From positions 1 to 64,000 of the forward strand of contig JAJPJF010000273.1 of assembly GCA_021324415.1 (NCBI GenBank): 64,000 nt of DNA, written 5' to 3'. Positions 8,597 through 61,921 of this stretch are shown here, one piece after another. Under the pieces are notes generated by a model. The model saw nothing but the letters and a program-made list of their open reading frames with translations, did no database searches and was not told where the DNA came from. Positions within the stretch are counted from its first letter, which is position 1. Each line of letters opens with the position of its first letter. Made by a program: the position numbers and the translations under genes. The stretch is from Nostocales cyanobacterium Centralia_MAG_434 (lineage in GTDB: Bacteria > Cyanobacteriota > Cyanobacteriia > Cyanobacteriales > Nostocaceae).

Positions 8597-9703
8597 TTAG
8601 ACAAGTTGTTCGGCCTTATGTATGGAACGTACAACGGCAGTAGCTGCGCGATCGCCCATGAGCTTCTCTTGGTCATATCCTAGTACCAATTCCCAAGCAT
8701 CTTCTGGATACATTTGAGCTAAAGGCAAAGCAACATCATCTAACATCCAGCGACCGTGACGTTCGTCTTCTCTAATATGCAATTCCCAATAACCCATTGC
8801 TGCATCAGATAATCCTAATCGTTGTGCTGCTGCAAGATAGTTTCTATAAGCTGCAGGTCCAGCAACTTCAAAGTATGTCAAGCCGCCACAATAGCGCAGA
8901 AAATAGCGCTTACACTCAGTTAGTAGAAAATTATGGTTGGCACAAGCAAGCACTTGCCAAGGAACCAAATCAAAGTATCCCTCAGGTTCTGTATTCATTC
9001 CAAATTCAGCCAGCATCTTGGCAAAAAATGTTGAATGCTTGCGAGAAAAGCGACCATTGCCATACTCTTCTAGCAAGACCCGCACAAGGGTACACTGTAT
9101 TTCATTAGCAGCACCGCCTAAAATTCGAGAAAGTCGGCTGCCTTCTACTAAACCGTCAAACGATCCAATAGCCAGTAAATGGCGGTAGCCAGTTTCTGTC
9201 ATTTGCTCACGGATGTAACGACTTTCACTAGACAAAGCTGGATCTAAATCGTCATCAGCACGTGCAAGCAACGCCTGACCTACATCCACTTTTTTTAAGG
9301 CTGCGACATCGATTTGTTCCAGTTCCCACTGTTGCCAAGCTGCTTCGATGTGCTCACGCACTTTATATAGGTAAAGCGATCGCTCATTATTGTAGCGTCG
9401 CAGATCGTCATACCAAAATAGGTTTAGTCGATTGATGCGATAAAGAATCCGCTGGAGAAAGCAATGAGCTTGATCATCTCCAGAACCATTTTGATATGCA
9501 GCGTAAATTGCTGCTGAGAGTAAACCTTCAAACTCACTAATGTCTTGGGCTAAAATATTGAGTTTGTTATCTAAGTCTTCTGTTGCTAGTAGCTTGCTAA
9601 ATTGCTGTTCTCCAGACTTATAATCTAGATTTGTTATTTCCTCAGGTTGCTCAGTTTTTCCTTTTGCAAAAGTGAGGGATGACATAGCTAAGTTGTTGTA
9701 CAT
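8597..9703 (-). CDS. Heme-oxygenase-like (HDO) iron-containing protein
   Basis: 368 residues. The C-terminal two thirds have the all-helical signature of heme-oxygenase-like diiron or cofactorless proteins (iron-containing redox enzyme family). Helix-borne ligand candidates are E in NEIQCTLVRVLLEEYG, the RKHS histidine about 16 residues later, and the pair E/H in WELHIREDERHGRWMLDD. Family members oxidise small metabolites or fatty acids; the substrate here is unknown. The N-terminal 130 residues are an extra helical region. It is monocistronic, with about 260 bases free on the 3' side. A second HDO-type gene lies at 58916-59839 in the tyrosine cluster. Confidence 0.7.
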   Translation of the reverse strand: MYNNLAMSSLTFAKGKTEQPEEITNLDYKSGEQQFSKLLATEDLDNKLNILAQDISEFEGLLSAAIYAAYQNGSGDDQAHCFLQRILYRINRLNLFWYDDLRRYNNERSLYLYKVREHIEAAWQQWELEQIDVAALKKVDVGQALLARADDDLDPALSSESRYIREQMTETGYRHLLAIGSFDGLVEGSRLSRILGGAANEIQCTLVRVLLEEYGNGRFSRKHSTFFAKMLAEFGMNTEPEGYFDLVPWQVLACANHNFLLTECKRYFLRYCGGLTYFEVAGPAAYRNYLAAAQRLGLSDAAMGYWELHIREDERHGRWMLDDVALPLAQMYPEDAWELVLGYDQEKLMGDRAATAVVRSIHKAEQLV

Positions 9704-53845: not shown

Positions 53846-55153
53846 TCAAAGAACCACACCCCGGCACTCTCCGAAACCTATCCTGACATAACCTGCTTTT
53901 TCACAGTAGCCGCGTAAGATAATTTCATCGCCCTCGCATAGGAAAGACCTTATTTCATGAGTTGGCAATTCGACTAACTGAGTACCACGCTGGGTAATTT
54001 CCAGTAGACACCCAAAAGAACCTTGCTCAGCACCGGAGACAGTTCCGCTAGCTAGCAAATCACCAGGACATAGGTTACAACCATTGCTTGTGTGATGGGT
54101 GAGCATCTGTGCTGGTGTCCAATACATCTGCTTGAAAGATCCACGGCTCAAGCACAACGGTTCCATACCTGCTGCACGCATCTGGATTGAACTTAGTAAC
54201 ACTTCAACTACAATATCAAACCCTCCTGCTTCAGTATTTAATGTTGAAGAGAGATGAGGCAAAGGCAAAGGATCGTCTTGGGTGCGCTTAAAACTAGGAC
54301 AACGGAAGGGTGCTAAAGCTTCTAAAGTGACGATCCAAGGTGAAATAGTAGTAGCAAAGCTTTTAGCCAAAAAAGGACCAAGAGGCTGATATTCCCAAGC
54401 TTGGATATCCCGTGCTGACCAATCATTTACCAAGCACAGCCCAAAAATGTGTTCTTCCGCATGATCTATGGGTATGGGATGTCCTAACTCATTGCCAACA
54501 CCAATAAAGAACCCAACTTCTAATTCATAGTCCAGCATCTGTGTCGGTTCAAAAATGGGTGCTGGCACTTCAGGTTTTTTTATCTGACCTTTAGGGCGCT
54601 TGATGGTGGTATCACTGGGCACAATTGAAGAAGCACGTCCATGGTAAGCAATGGGAACGTACTTATAATTGGGGAGCAGAGGATTGTCAGGACGGAATAA
54701 CCTACCCACATTGGTAGCGTGGAAAATTGAGGCATAGAAGTCTGTATAATCACTAATACTGGCAGGTAATAAAAATTCAACGTTGGACATAGGGATCAGT
54801 ATTTCTGGTGCTGCTGGGGGTGATTGCTCATCCCATTGCAGAAGATGACTCAAGTGATGGCGCACCATTGATGCAACTTCATTCCCCATTGCCATCAGTT
54901 GATTTAAGTTAGATTCTGCACAGGCTAATTGCACTTGTTCTGGAAGTTCTTGCAACAGTCCTGCTTTACAGCAAAGATACAAATCTAGGATTTGGTCACC
55001 AATAGCAACTCCAATGTGTGGTGTTTGCGCACTACGCTGAGGACGAAAAACGCCAAACGGCAGATTCTGAATTGGGAAATCAGTATTTGGTTGATTGGCA
55101 GATTCTACCCAACTACGTAAATTGGGGTTGTGGGTGGGATTGGTGAGAATCAT
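53846..55153 (-). CDS. fahA: Fumarylacetoacetase
   Basis: 435 residues from MILTNPTHNPNLRSW. Hydrolyses fumarylacetoacetate to fumarate and acetoacetate, the last step of tyrosine and homogentisate breakdown. Metal and active-site motifs are visible: DYTDFYASIFHATNVGRLFRP, MLDYELEVGFFIG, NDWSARDIQAWEYQPLGPFLAKSF and GSGTVSGAE-like ASGTVSGAEQGS. The frame opens at 55285, but the first 44 residues have no family match. Its start overlaps the end of the next upstream gene by 41 bases, so the two are translationally close. Confidence 0.92.
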   Translation of the reverse strand: MILTNPTHNPNLRSWVESANQPNTDFPIQNLPFGVFRPQRSAQTPHIGVAIGDQILDLYLCCKAGLLQELPEQVQLACAESNLNQLMAMGNEVASMVRHHLSHLLQWDEQSPPAAPEILIPMSNVEFLLPASISDYTDFYASIFHATNVGRLFRPDNPLLPNYKYVPIAYHGRASSIVPSDTTIKRPKGQIKKPEVPAPIFEPTQMLDYELEVGFFIGVGNELGHPIPIDHAEEHIFGLCLVNDWSARDIQAWEYQPLGPFLAKSFATTISPWIVTLEALAPFRCPSFKRTQDDPLPLPHLSSTLNTEAGGFDIVVEVLLSSIQMRAAGMEPLCLSRGSFKQMYWTPAQMLTHHTSNGCNLCPGDLLASGTVSGAEQGSFGCLLEITQRGTQLVELPTHEIRSFLCEGDEIILRGYCEKAGYVRIGFGECRGVVL

Positions 55154-56021
55154 AGGGGAGACAATATTTGAGGTTGTTGACTGGTTCTTGAAATGAGCAG
55201 GAACCGAAAGAGCGAAAAAAGCGTTGTCTAGCCTCTTCAATTTCTGCAATATTGAGACGATAATTCCGCCAGGAAATAGCATCATCTGTGAAGTGGAAAT
55301 TTTTGCTAGCAGACTCTTGCAGGAGTTCTAGAGAAGTTTGTGGTGTTATTTTTTGCCAATAAACTAATGCTGCCAAAACAATAACATTCAAAAAGCCATG
55401 CATTTGAGTTGAAGGGCTATCTGGCTCGTATGTTATGCGATAGTTACCTGGTAATAGATGATGCAAACCTGCGGTTGCTTTAAATGGAATTTGGGCATTA
55501 GCAAACGACAAGATGTACTGACAAAGTTGGTTAGCGCTAGGAAATGTATCGATGGTAATTCCTCCAGTACGGATTTTCGCAGATGTTTGGGTATTTTTGA
55601 GTACTGTTAAATATGGCTGTAAATCAACACTAAAGGGAATTTCAAAAAATACTTCTACTTCATCAACTAAATTAGGGATGATTCTCTGTATTTCGATAGA
55701 TGAAAGCTGAGGAAATTCTAAAGATGTAATACTAAGCTGATTTTTGCTGTAGAGAGAACGCACCATCTCTATTTCTAACTCCCAATTTTTTGAGAAAATT
55801 AGAGTGAGTGGCCACTGTTTTAATTGAAATGTTGGTTGAAGGGCTTCAAATTCTTTCAACTGGGATGTTGGGAGAACAAAACGATTTAGCATCCAGTTGT
55901 AAGATGTTAACTGATGATCAACATAACTTGCCATTGCCTTATGCAAGGGAAGCTTGGCTGGAGGAAATAGTCCAGCGTAGTCCACAATTGATGAAAGAAG
56001 TGTCTTTACTGATGCGAGCAT
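55113..56021 (-). CDS. Unknown protein linked to fumarylacetoacetase
   Basis: 302 residues. Begins VDYAGLFPPAKLPLHKAMASY, a motif I know only from conserved bacterial proteins of unknown function. Other features: NWMLNRFVLPTSQL, DEVEVFFEIPF, AKIRTGGI, and PFKATAGLHHLLPG. The alternation of short strands with helices fits a TIM-barrel-like fold. No cofactor motif is visible. The overlap with fahA and the tyrosine context make an enzyme of that pathway plausible. Maleylacetoacetate isomerase is otherwise missing here, and this protein is one candidate. That is inference. Confidence 0.72.
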   Translation of the reverse strand: MLASVKTLLSSIVDYAGLFPPAKLPLHKAMASYVDHQLTSYNWMLNRFVLPTSQLKEFEALQPTFQLKQWPLTLIFSKNWELEIEMVRSLYSKNQLSITSLEFPQLSSIEIQRIIPNLVDEVEVFFEIPFSVDLQPYLTVLKNTQTSAKIRTGGITIDTFPSANQLCQYILSFANAQIPFKATAGLHHLLPGNYRITYEPDSPSTQMHGFLNVIVLAALVYWQKITPQTSLELLQESASKNFHFTDDAISWRNYRLNIAEIEEARQRFFRSFGSCSFQEPVNNLKYCLPYDSHQSHPQPQFT

Positions 56022-56438: not shown

Positions 56439-56485
56439 TTGAACGATGTCGGATGATGTCTAGTAAACAAGGAATCGGAATCCAC

Positions 56486-57577
56486 ATGAAAGACTTTTGT
56501 CCCATACAGCGCTTTGACCACCTAGAATTCTATGTTGGTAATGCTAGGCAAGCAGCGTTGTTTTATTCCAAATTTTTCGGATTTACCAATACAGCATACC
56601 GAGGTTTAGAAACTGGTAAACGAGAGGTCACATCCTATGTGCTCCGGCAAGGTAATATATGTTTTGTTCTGAGTACAGCACTAAGTCCAAATCATCCTAT
56701 CTCACAAAGTGTGCTTAAGCACGGCGATGGAGTTGCTGTGATTGCCTTGGAAGTACCAAACGCTTTCAACGCCTATCAGGAGACAACTAAGCGTGGTGCT
56801 GTAGGTGTTATTCCTCCGACGGAAGACGAAGATAAAGATGGAGTGTTTCGCTACGCAGCCATACGTGGCTATGGTGACACATTAATCAAGTTTGTGGAAC
56901 GTAGTGATTACTTTGGGGTATTTGCTCCTGGCTTTGAGCCTTTAGACCATACTGATAAGGGTAACTTTGTAGGACTATACGAGATTGACCATGTTGTAGG
57001 AAACGTCGAACTAGGAGCAATGGAGCAATGGGTAGAGTTTTTTGCCAACACCGTGGGCTTTAATCTTTTAGTGCATTTTGACGAGCAGGCAATCTGCACA
57101 GAATATTCGGCATTGATCTCCAAGGTAATGCAGGATGGTACAGGCAAGATTAAATTGCCAATTAACCAGCCCGCCAAAGGCAAATGCAAATCCCAGATTG
57201 AAGAGTTCTTGGAATATAACCATGGACCAGGAGTACAACACATCGCCTGTGCAACCCATAACATAATCGACACAGTTCTCCAGATGAAGACCGCAGGCGT
57301 CAAGTTTCTGAGCGTACCAAAAGCGTATTATGAAAACTTGGAAGAGCGAGTGGGAAAGATTAATGAGCCTATCGAGCAATTAGCTGAATTAGGCATTTTA
57401 GTAGATAGAGATGAAGATGGATATTTACTCCAGATTTTCACCCAGCCTGTGCAAGACCGACCGACACTTTTCTTTGAAGTGATTGAGCGACATGGTGCAC
57501 AAAGTTTTGGTGAGGGTAACTTCAAATCTTTGTTTGAGGCAATTGAACGAGAACAGTTGCTGCGAGGGAATTTGTGA
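56486..57577 (+). CDS. hppD: 4-hydroxyphenylpyruvate dioxygenase
   Basis: 363 residues from MKDFCPIQRFDHLEF. Converts 4-hydroxyphenylpyruvate to homogentisate using Fe(II) and O2. Two VOC barrels; iron ligands are H169 (EIDHVVGNVE), H252 (GVQHIACATHNI) and E331 (FFEVIERHG). An in-frame ATG pair at 56453 would add 11 residues, but nothing resembling a ribosome binding site precedes it. Homogentisate also feeds tocopherol synthesis in cyanobacteria, but the next gene, hmgA, indicates a catabolic role here. First gene of a four-gene rightward operon. Confidence 0.94.
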   Translation: MKDFCPIQRFDHLEFYVGNARQAALFYSKFFGFTNTAYRGLETGKREVTSYVLRQGNICFVLSTALSPNHPISQSVLKHGDGVAVIALEVPNAFNAYQETTKRGAVGVIPPTEDEDKDGVFRYAAIRGYGDTLIKFVERSDYFGVFAPGFEPLDHTDKGNFVGLYEIDHVVGNVELGAMEQWVEFFANTVGFNLLVHFDEQAICTEYSALISKVMQDGTGKIKLPINQPAKGKCKSQIEEFLEYNHGPGVQHIACATHNIIDTVLQMKTAGVKFLSVPKAYYENLEERVGKINEPIEQLAELGILVDRDEDGYLLQIFTQPVQDRPTLFFEVIERHGAQSFGEGNFKSLFEAIEREQLLRGNL

Positions 57578-58915: not shown

Positions 58916-59839
58916 ATGACTCAAGTTCTCACACCAGATCCGGTTGGTCTAACCGTTTCCTCTCGTATCAATAAACGCTTACTTCAAGGCGAACTCACTC
59001 AAAATCAAGTGAATGACTTTCAAGACTTCCTCACTAAAGTTGGCCAGGAATTTTTGCAGCACCGTATTATTACTGATAACGCCTATACTAGCTGGTTTAG
59101 CAAAGGCAGGGCTACGGACGAAGAGCTACGGCACTTCATTCGTCAATTCTCGGTCTTCTCTAACCTATTCCTAGTAGCGGCACTGTTGAAAGTTATTAAC
59201 TCACCTACACTCAAGCAATCACGTGCCAGCCGTGAGATATTACTGAACGAACTAGGTGTGATTTACCGCAGTCCTAGACATAATGTTAACCCTCACATGA
59301 CTCAAACAGAGGATGAAAAAGACCGGGAAGGTGACCCTGAATTAGTTAATACTGAGGGTACGGTAGACGGTGGTATATGTCGTTTCCGCGCAGCACATTT
59401 TGAATGGTTGCTCTCTGTGGCAGAGGGTTTGGGCTTGCACTATGAAGACATTGGTAAACGCAAGCATGGACGACCTACAACTTTGCATTTTTGCGATGAA
59501 CTGCAACGTCTTTACGGTAGCGACGACCCACAAATTGCTCAGGGTGCTAGCTTCGCAGTTGAAAATTGGGCAGCAGCGGGTTTCTGGCAGGAGTTAGAGG
59601 TCGGACTAACACGCATTAAGCAAACACGACATCCACAGCTACACTTAGCGTTCTTCTCTTGGCACAATCGTGTTGAGGCACAGCATGCTGGACATACCTT
59701 AGAGGAACTTGAAGAGGTTTATTTTCAGTCAGACTTTGACCACAACAAGTTCTATCAAGGAGGGAGAGAAATTCTTGAAGCTATTGCTGTTTTCTGGGAT
59801 GGTCTGAACAGCGATCGCCTGAATCACGTCTTCCTATAA
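58916..59839 (+). CDS. Heme-oxygenase-like protein in the tyrosine cluster
   Basis: 307 residues. All-helical with candidate metal ligands: E/H in GICRFRAAHFEWL, E in AVENWAAAGFWQELE and H/E/H in SWHNRVEAQHAGHTLEELEE. The pattern fits the HDO superfamily (CADD, TenA, UndA and related proteins), many of which bind two irons and oxidise small amines or amino acids. In this operon it lies between hmgA (39 bases) and the acyl ligase (6 bases), so it probably acts on a tyrosine- or homogentisate-derived compound. Chlamydial CADD makes p-aminobenzoate from tyrosine, a suggestive parallel. The specific reaction is unknown. Confidence 0.75.
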   Translation: MTQVLTPDPVGLTVSSRINKRLLQGELTQNQVNDFQDFLTKVGQEFLQHRIITDNAYTSWFSKGRATDEELRHFIRQFSVFSNLFLVAALLKVINSPTLKQSRASREILLNELGVIYRSPRHNVNPHMTQTEDEKDREGDPELVNTEGTVDGGICRFRAAHFEWLLSVAEGLGLHYEDIGKRKHGRPTTLHFCDELQRLYGSDDPQIAQGASFAVENWAAAGFWQELEVGLTRIKQTRHPQLHLAFFSWHNRVEAQHAGHTLEELEEVYFQSDFDHNKFYQGGREILEAIAVFWDGLNSDRLNHVFL

Positions 59840-59845
59840 AGACCT

Positions 59846-61921
59846 ATGACCAAGCAACTGTCGCTAGAACAAATTCTTAACACTGGCCTAGAAACTAGTA
59901 CAGCCACTGCAATATTACCGCAGGTCAATCAGTGGCTTGCTTTTCTCGCCCCTAGTGAATGCTGGCAGCACTTGACTGAATATATTCTCAAGCCTAGCCA
60001 CCCGTTTGCATTCCACGAACTCCTCTACAAAACAACCTTCTATGACTGGGACGGTAATCAAGGATCACCTCCCGCTTGGTTTCCCACGGATCAGCAGATA
60101 CAACAGACCAATATTGCAGCTTTCATGCATGAATTGAAGTTGGATTCTTACTCAGAATTCCATGCTTGGTCGGTAAAACATCGTTACGAGTTCTGGGACA
60201 GAATGATCTACCGTTTAGGTATCCGCTTCCAGAAACACTACACTCAAATTGTAGACCTTTCCCATGGCGTGGAATCTCCCCAATGGCTGCTAAATGCCTG
60301 TTTCAACATTGTTGAAAGTTGTTTTCAAGCGGCACCAGATACTCCTGCTATCATCTTTCAGCCAATTGATAGTTCAATTGCGACTTTGACTTACGGAGAA
60401 CTTCACGTCCTGGCTAACCGAGTTGCCAATGGACTTGTGGATGCTGGCTTTTATCCAGGTGATCGCATTGCCATTGCCATGCCCATGACTGTCGAATCTG
60501 TTGCCATTTATCTGGGAATTATCAAATCTGGTTGTGTGGTAGTCTCAATTCCTGATAGTTTTGCGCCTGCAGAAATTGGCACACGGCTACGTCTGTCTCA
60601 TGCTAAAGCAATTTTCACCCAAGATTGCATTTTACGGTGTGGTAAACAATTGCCGCTCTATAGCAAAGTGGTTGACGCCAACGCACCCACAGCAATTGTC
60701 CTTAAATGTAACGCCAGGACACAGGGAAGCGGGAAAACAGAAAATTCTTTAAATCTAACGATTAAACTGCGTTATGGTGATATCACTTGGGAGGAGTTTC
60801 TCAGTTCCAACACGCAATTTGACCCCATCTATTCAGATCCCGCGGCTTATGTCAACATCCTGTTTTCTTCCGGCACTACAGGAGAACCCAAAGCGATTCC
60901 CTGGACACAGACAACCCCAATCAAGTGTGCTGCTGATGGACATCTACACTTAGACATCCATCCAGGTGATGTGGTAGCATGGCCTACTAACCTTGGCTGG
61001 ATGATGGGGCCATGGCTGATTTATGCCACCCTGATTAATCAAGCGACTATTGCTCTTTACTACGGGGCACCCACTGAGCTAGAATTTGGTGAATTTATAC
61101 AGAATGCTAACGTTAATATATTAGGTCTGGTGCCTAGTCTTGTTAGTACCTGGAAAACAACTGCTTGTATGCAAGGGCTAGACTGGAGCGCCATTAAAGC
61201 TTTTAGCTCCACTGGCGAGTGTTCCAATCCTCAGGATATGCTCTACTTGATGTCTCTAGCAGGATACAAACCAGTTATTGAATATTGCGGTGGTACTGAA
61301 ATTGGTGGAAGTTACATCAGCAGTACTTTAGTACAGCCCTCAGCACCCTCGACTTTTACCACACCGACCTTAGGATTAGACATTGCCATTGTTAACACAG
61401 ATGGCCATCTCTCTGACAAAGGCGAGGTGTTTATTATTCCTCCATCAATAGGGCTTTCCACCGAACTGTTAAATAAAGACCATTATCAAGTTTACTTCGC
61501 GAATACTCCCGCCTCTACTCTACGCCGTCACGGTGACCAGATGGAAAGGTTGTCTAACAGCTACTACCGTGCCCAAGGTCGCGTTGACGACACTATGAAC
61601 TTGGGTGGGATCAAAGTCAGTGCAGCTGAAATTGAACAAGTTCTCAACACTGAGGTAGGAATTAGTGAAACGGCGGCGATCGCTGTTTCTTCTCTAGAAG
61701 GGGGACCAAGCCAATTGATCATCTATGCAGTGGTGACATCAGATTTTCAAGAGAGTAAAGTAGCACTCATGGCGTCCTTACAAGCGAAGATTAGACAGCA
61801 TCTCAATCCTTTGTTTAAAATTTATGACGTTGTTATTGTTGATACTCTGCCCCGCACAGCTTCCAACAAAGTTATGCGTCGGGTACTGCGTGATTGGTAC
61901 CAGCTTGAGGCTGTGAAATGA
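59846..61921 (+). CDS. Acetoacetyl-CoA synthetase-like acyl ligase
   Basis: 691 residues, ANL superfamily. An N-terminal extension of about 175 residues matches acetyl-/acetoacetyl-CoA synthetases (FYDWDGNQGSPPAWFPTDQQI, EFWDRMIYRLGI). The P-loop reads LFSSGTTGEPKAIPWTQ, then YCGGTEIGGSY and RAQGRVDDTMNLGGIKVSAAEIE; the catalytic Lys is in TASNKVMRRVLRD. The expected reaction is ATP-dependent formation of a CoA thioester. In this operon the natural substrate would be acetoacetate released by fumarylacetoacetase, closing the pathway to acetyl-CoA. Other acids are possible. It follows the HDO gene by 6 bases. Confidence 0.85.
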   Translation: MTKQLSLEQILNTGLETSTATAILPQVNQWLAFLAPSECWQHLTEYILKPSHPFAFHELLYKTTFYDWDGNQGSPPAWFPTDQQIQQTNIAAFMHELKLDSYSEFHAWSVKHRYEFWDRMIYRLGIRFQKHYTQIVDLSHGVESPQWLLNACFNIVESCFQAAPDTPAIIFQPIDSSIATLTYGELHVLANRVANGLVDAGFYPGDRIAIAMPMTVESVAIYLGIIKSGCVVVSIPDSFAPAEIGTRLRLSHAKAIFTQDCILRCGKQLPLYSKVVDANAPTAIVLKCNARTQGSGKTENSLNLTIKLRYGDITWEEFLSSNTQFDPIYSDPAAYVNILFSSGTTGEPKAIPWTQTTPIKCAADGHLHLDIHPGDVVAWPTNLGWMMGPWLIYATLINQATIALYYGAPTELEFGEFIQNANVNILGLVPSLVSTWKTTACMQGLDWSAIKAFSSTGECSNPQDMLYLMSLAGYKPVIEYCGGTEIGGSYISSTLVQPSAPSTFTTPTLGLDIAIVNTDGHLSDKGEVFIIPPSIGLSTELLNKDHYQVYFANTPASTLRRHGDQMERLSNSYYRAQGRVDDTMNLGGIKVSAAEIEQVLNTEVGISETAAIAVSSLEGGPSQLIIYAVVTSDFQESKVALMASLQAKIRQHLNPLFKIYDVVIVDTLPRTASNKVMRRVLRDWYQLEAVK

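Follow-up and report, generated by a model that had tools for sequence, protein, structure and literature searches.

The protein encoded between a homogentisate 1,2-dioxygenase (HmgA) gene and an acyl-CoA ligase gene in the window, a stretch of 64,000 nucleotides from a Nostocales cyanobacterium, has a heme-oxygenase-like helical-bundle (HDO) fold and is, in the reading that we favour with moderate confidence, a pterin-independent dinuclear-iron L-phenylalanine 4-hydroxylase that feeds the homogentisate pathway as a non-orthologous displacement of canonical phenylalanine hydroxylase (PAH). Textbooks assign the hydroxylation of phenylalanine to a single family of enzymes that depend on pterin, and the protein, referred to below as the HDO, probably represents an unrecognised second bacterial route from phenylalanine to tyrosine. 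On balance, and with slightly less assurance, it can also be regarded as founding a second class of phenylalanine hydroxylase, one that works without pterin and is present in eight or more bacterial phyla, and as the first aromatic-ring hydroxylase on the HDO diiron scaffold, with an insert of almost 50 residues breaking up core helix 3.

The HDO gene starts with ATG and lies among genes of tyrosine degradation (Table 1), with 39 bp between the end of hmgA (58876) and its own start and 6 bp between its end and the start of the ligase gene (59846). The source genome (8.4 Mb, 99.98% complete) carries a second HPPD copy on contig C81, and its HDO is nearest to the HDOs of heterocystous and other filamentous cyanobacteria, both in the search for relatives and in the tree. 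The true start of fumarylacetoacetase (FAH) is probably near 55113, since the family match begins only at residue 58. A scan for sigma-70 promoters and terminators gave no signals above those of shuffled sequences.

Table 1. Features of the HDO locus (positions in the window) and of locus L092 (last row, positions in that locus).
Feature	Position	Strand	Basis
HDO-fold protein, proposed pterin-independent phenylalanine 4-hydroxylase	58916..59839	+	ORF of 307 aa; fold; invariant ligands; PAH displacement
Short homogentisate 1,2-dioxygenase HmgA, 385 aa	57719..58876	+	TIGR01015 51 bits (cut-off 510); adjoins HPPD
4-Hydroxyphenylpyruvate dioxygenase HPPD, catabolic copy	56453..57577	+	TIGR01263 421 bits, above cut-off
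Acetoacetyl-CoA synthetase-like ligase	59846..61921	+	AMP-binding; highest-scoring NCBIfam subfamily acetoacetate--CoA ligase (241 bits against a cut-off of 639)
Fumarylacetoacetase FAH	53846..55285	-	TIGR01266 531 bits, above cut-off
U302, predicted TIM barrel next to FAH	55113..56021	-	No Pfam/NCBIfam family above cut-off; AF2 pLDDT 91
Locus L092	HPPD 9964-8924, HmgA 8797-7625, PAH 6721-6014		

The AF2 model of the HDO (mean pLDDT 82, pTM 0.80) is an HDO-type helical bundle, the fold that characterizes the superfamily. Its top Foldseek match in the PDB was CtCADD (8vag; probability 1.00, TM-score 0.79 by target), and UndA, BesC and PqqC (each with probability 1.00) and HrmI followed lower in the list, all of them HDO/TenA/PqqC structures. 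The initial annotation had described an HDO-like protein inside a tyrosine operon and had called for a structure prediction; the open reading frame, the short intergenic gaps, the predicted fold and the conservation of the operon described below bear this description out. A PDB search with the single HDO sequence gave zero matches, and a profile search gave marginal matches only, which were used for the alignment of ligands with CADD and BesC. The Pfam family PF14518 matched weakly (15.1 bits, below the cut-off of 28.9); this family marks one HDO branch and is not required for superfamily membership, and the protein is, as judged from its sequence, a distant subfamily relative to PF14518.

Six candidate metal ligands, E112, H161, E216, H250, E254 and H257, were invariant among 44 aligned homologues with 51-84% identity to the window protein. 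Of the 86 homologues taken from all loci, 85-86 kept them, missing sequence being the sole exception, and homologues with the invariant set span about eight phyla. Q77, W164, R182, N217 and W218 are conserved as well. The Glu and His residues that had been noticed in three helices are thus real and invariant. HMMER aligned H250-x3-E254-x2-H257, three of the six ligands, with the H-x3-[DE]-x2-H motif that supplies metal ligands in CADD and BesC, and E112 and H161 were assigned from conservation and order only; the six together make up the 3-His/3-carboxylate ligand set known from diiron HDOs (PMC13108848). E112 and H161, both assigned to helix 3, have 48 residues between them, and the corresponding ligands of MboA are Glu86 and His89 (PMC13185094). 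Helix 3 is the mobile helix in HDOs and is disordered in several metal-free structures (PMC13108848); much of the stretch between the two ligands here (residues 113-159) was of low confidence in the AF2 model. From the sequence we infer that the six ligands would cluster into a two-metal site.

A second HDO-like protein is encoded in the window (8597-9703, minus strand; 368 amino acids; PF14518 at 99 bits), adjoining a penicillin-binding-protein-like ORF. Its ligand set, read from the letters, is E-x9-H, E and H-x3-D-x2-H, and an hhalign comparison of the two proteins yielded no useful alignment.

CtCADD is the best structural match, which would suit a CADD-type self-sacrificing p-aminobenzoate (pABA) synthase, a role that the initial annotation had raised. 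In CADD, Tyr27 is sacrificed and Lys152 donates the amine (PMC11965152). HMMER aligned Tyr27 with Y57 of the window protein; however, this position is Phe in 6 of the 86 homologues, so that the putative sacrificial Tyr is not strictly conserved. Moreover, no conserved Lys occurs about ten residues after E216, where the counterpart of Lys152 would be expected: position 225 is Lys in only 18 of the 86 homologues and in none of the cyanobacterial rows shown, and K235 lies 19 residues past E216, not 10. Furthermore, pabB was found above cut-off in the source genome itself and in 14 of 27 HDO-containing genomes, and pABA synthesis would leave the linkage to HPPD and HmgA unexplained. Such a role is therefore disfavoured and considered highly improbable.

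The linkage extends far beyond the window. The observation is not a matter of chance, because 219 relatives of the HDO were found in GTDB contigs. Among the best 80 loci of these 219 relatives, HmgA lay upstream on the same strand in 44, essentially in cyanobacteria, and HPPD lay downstream of the HDO in 15, in planctomycetes and in two records titled Chloroflexi; the remaining 21 include contig ends and loci in which the HDO stands apart, found in Krumholzibacteriota, Neomarinimicrobiota, Fibrobacterota, Acidobacteriota and Vampirovibrionia. Gene order, the loss of which in related genomes had been named beforehand as grounds for rejecting the proposal, is thus conserved. Most genomes with a stand-apart HDO nevertheless encode HPPD and HmgA at other sites, and no clue to a pathway was found in the genes around the HDO in Krumholzibacteriota and Neomarinimicrobiota. 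Across 44 HDO-containing genomes, several of which are incomplete MAGs, 43 had an HPPD match, which exceeded the curated cut-off in 40 of them, and 39 had the short HmgA, unlinked cases included; all five genomes without HmgA are MAGs. Lrp/AsnC regulators adjoin the HDO in three loci (L064, L075 and L079), and such regulators adjoin phhA in some proteobacteria (PMC1173090), a parallel counted in favour of phenylalanine hydroxylation.

The distribution is patchy: among 116 Cyanobacteriota genomes only 3 have an HDO, and in two of these the copy is only distantly related. Horizontal transfer is suggested by the tree, in which cyanobacterial HDOs nest within planctomycete ones (inner branches weakly to well supported, midpoint root). 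One contig from a 'Chloroflexi' MAG (L052) bears an HDO whose sequence falls within those of Isosphaeraceae in the tree, and its phylum label is probably a binning error. In a distant Cyanobacteriota genome of 2.3 Mb (G090), FAH, HmgA and HDO are clustered (L106, 4908-9763); this HDO is very divergent (35% identity) yet keeps all six ligand residues, and the cluster also holds an ORF that resembles part of HPPD by eye and has no Pfam match.

Among the cyanobacterial relatives, the genes alongside the HDO include a class I aminotransferase and indoleamine 2,3-dioxygenase, together with genes resembling threonine dehydrogenase, KBL and threonine dehydratase, as inferred from Pfam domains; the locus is thus an amino-acid-catabolism island, a setting counted in favour of the phenylalanine reading. 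Indoleamine 2,3-dioxygenase occurs with PLP/epimerase-family genes resembling threonine catabolism at L005 (11342-12568) and L013 (8965-12397). A PLSDB search returned two cyanobacterial plasmid copies of the HDO, one annotated 'hypothetical protein'. On a plasmid of Gloeothece verrucosa PCC 7822 (L110, 5971-8866), a 71% identical HDO is accompanied by a PF10014 2OG-Fe dioxygenase gene and an aminotransferase-V gene, possibly as a small amino-acid-modifying cluster. The absence of HPPD and HmgA beside this plasmid HDO was counted against a phenylalanine hydroxylase. Together with the threonine- and tryptophan-type enzymes of the island, it would fit a catabolic or biosynthetic oxygenase that acts on another amino acid or derivative and merely hitch-hikes in the island. 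However, the coupling to HPPD and HmgA in about eight phyla, including genomes in which the HDO is unlinked, argues against a passenger, and we regard this role as rather unlikely.

The neighbouring enzymes belong to the homogentisate route. The metal-ligand positions H300, E307 and H336 of HmgA are invariant in the family alignment. This short, divergent HmgA is common to cyanobacteria, planctomycetes, Krumholzibacteriota and others, and, given its score (Table 1), it would go unnamed by the NCBI equivalog model for hmgA. From the adjoining acyl-CoA ligase it had been argued that the HDO acts on a tyrosine-derived intermediate. This argument could not be upheld: the ligase resembles acetoacetate-CoA ligase and a thiolase follows it in some relatives (L019, L032, L033 and L047), so that it would serve to dispose of acetoacetate, the end product of the pathway, and would not act on an HDO product. 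The pattern of presence and absence points one step upstream of tyrosine, to phenylalanine as the substrate.

This pattern concerns PAH, scored as PF00351 with a control that matched in Caulobacter. PAH was found in none of the 44 HDO-containing genomes. Among 116 sampled Cyanobacteriota genomes, 13 encode HmgA, of which five have PAH, three have HDO, five have neither and none has both; PAH never occurred outside this HmgA-containing set. The corresponding sample of 148 Planctomycetota genomes contained 11 with a convincing HmgA, eight with PAH, two with HDO, one with neither and none with both. Pooled over these two unbiased samples, PAH occurs in 13 of 19 HmgA-containing genomes without HDO versus 0 of 5 with HDO (Fisher p = 0.011, kinship ignored), in samples that are modest in size and phylogenetically structured; taken separately, the values are modest (p = 0.23 for Cyanobacteriota and 0.055 for Planctomycetota, kinship again ignored). 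Adding 37 further genomes with both HDO and HmgA gives p = 4e-9, a value from genomes that were chosen for having HDO and are not independent. The HDO therefore co-occurs with HPPD and HmgA and excludes PF00351, which was the mark sought for a phenylalanine hydroxylase function. The six HmgA-containing genomes with neither PAH nor HDO, counted against the proposal, may use tyrosine only.

PAH and HDO also share a genomic slot. In three planctomycetes (G199, G239 and G259), PAH follows closely downstream of HmgA and on its strand, and in G199 and G259 HmgA is itself preceded by HPPD; this order matches the HPPD-HmgA-HDO order of cyanobacteria. The positions at one of these planctomycete loci, L092, are given in Table 1. 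In the other two, L093 and L094, HmgA and PAH are separated by a flavin-reductase-like gene (PF01613 confirmed in L094). The HDO protein has no Pfam match to the Biopterin_H domain PF00351 and is not a member of that family but a proposed analogue. Because the two unrelated proteins are mutually exclusive and occupy a common slot, they most likely do the same job, the supply of tyrosine, or 4-hydroxyphenylpyruvate, from phenylalanine. The second of these products would arise if the HDO hydroxylated phenylpyruvate instead of phenylalanine and so entered the pathway at HPPD, which accounts equally for the displacement of PAH and also for the direct adjacency of HDO and HPPD in planctomycetes. 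However, the 2-keto acid would have to come from the biosynthetic pool, and the substrates of characterized HDOs are mostly amino acids or fatty acids (PMC13108848), a point counted in favour of phenylalanine; hydroxylation of phenylpyruvate is accordingly considered improbable.

Since the HDO co-occurs with HmgA, it could be assigned to another step of tyrosine or homogentisate breakdown, either as a replacement for maleylacetoacetate isomerase or as an enzyme acting on tyrosine or homogentisate. A canonical maiA above cut-off was indeed absent from 45 of the 46 genomes checked. However, it was equally absent from all 19 HmgA-containing genomes that lack HDO, and the only one found was in an HDO-containing genome (1 of 27). 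The HDO thus does not track the loss of maiA, and as a replacement for the isomerase it failed this control. Any such step also leaves the exclusion of PAH unexplained, and we consider this assignment unlikely. A better candidate for the missing, glutathione-independent isomerase is U302, which is conserved beside FAH in cyanobacteria as well as in G147 and the HDO-less planctomycete G293. Its invariant residues are a Lys, a Glu, a His-His pair and a Cys, and its predicted TIM barrel gave TrpA-like matches.

For the preferred function, phenylalanine 4-hydroxylation, the following course is proposed. Two irons would be bound by E112, H161, E216, H250, E254 and H257, and the diferrous site would bind O2 to form a peroxo-level oxidant, which would hydroxylate the ring of L-phenylalanine at C4 to give L-tyrosine with the use of two external electrons. 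These electrons would come from a generic donor, a ferredoxin-type donor being a guess; no dedicated reductase was found to be conserved with the HDO, which was counted against the proposal. Tyrosine would then be transaminated and passed through HPPD, HmgA, the isomerase and FAH to fumarate and acetoacetate, and the neighbouring ligase and a thiolase would convert acetoacetate to acetyl-CoA. Also counted against the proposal is the chemistry of the approximately one dozen characterized HDOs, which covers N-oxygenation, C-C cleavage, desaturation, rearrangement and azetidine or alkyne formation and includes no arene hydroxylase (PMC13108848, PMC13185094). Searches confined to an open-access library turned up no paper that connects an HDO with homogentisate or with the hydroxylation of phenylalanine.

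If the proposal is true, it would explain how phenylalanine could be used in organisms that have HPPD and homogentisate dioxygenase but lack PhhA. For the HDO superfamily it would be the first case of arene hydroxylation and would add a function in primary metabolism; a simple enzyme that needs no pterin would also be attractive for producing tyrosine or depleting phenylalanine.

Three known systems invite comparison. With PAH/PhhA (PF00351) the HDO shares the proposed reaction and pathway position, the operon slot downstream of HmgA (in planctomycetes) and, in some lineages, an Lrp/AsnC neighbour. However, the two are unrelated in sequence and fold, and PAH uses a mononuclear iron and tetrahydropterin, whereas the HDO is proposed to use a dinuclear iron and no pterin. 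With the HDO superfamily (UndA, BesC, SznF, AetD, HrmI, PolF, MboA and CADD) it has in common the fold, the 3-His/3-carboxylate set and the H-x3-[DE]-x2-H motif. It differs from them as a highly conserved family of primary metabolism, in the proposed arene hydroxylation and in the spacing of Glu and His in helix 3, with 48 intervening residues here compared with 2 in MboA (E86/H89) and 9 in the second, canonical-looking HDO of the window. The pABA synthases CtCADD and NePabS have identical ligand types, and CtCADD is the nearest structure; in contrast to these enzymes, the HDO lacks a strictly conserved sacrificial Tyr and the donor Lys, stands in another genomic context and occurs alongside pabB.
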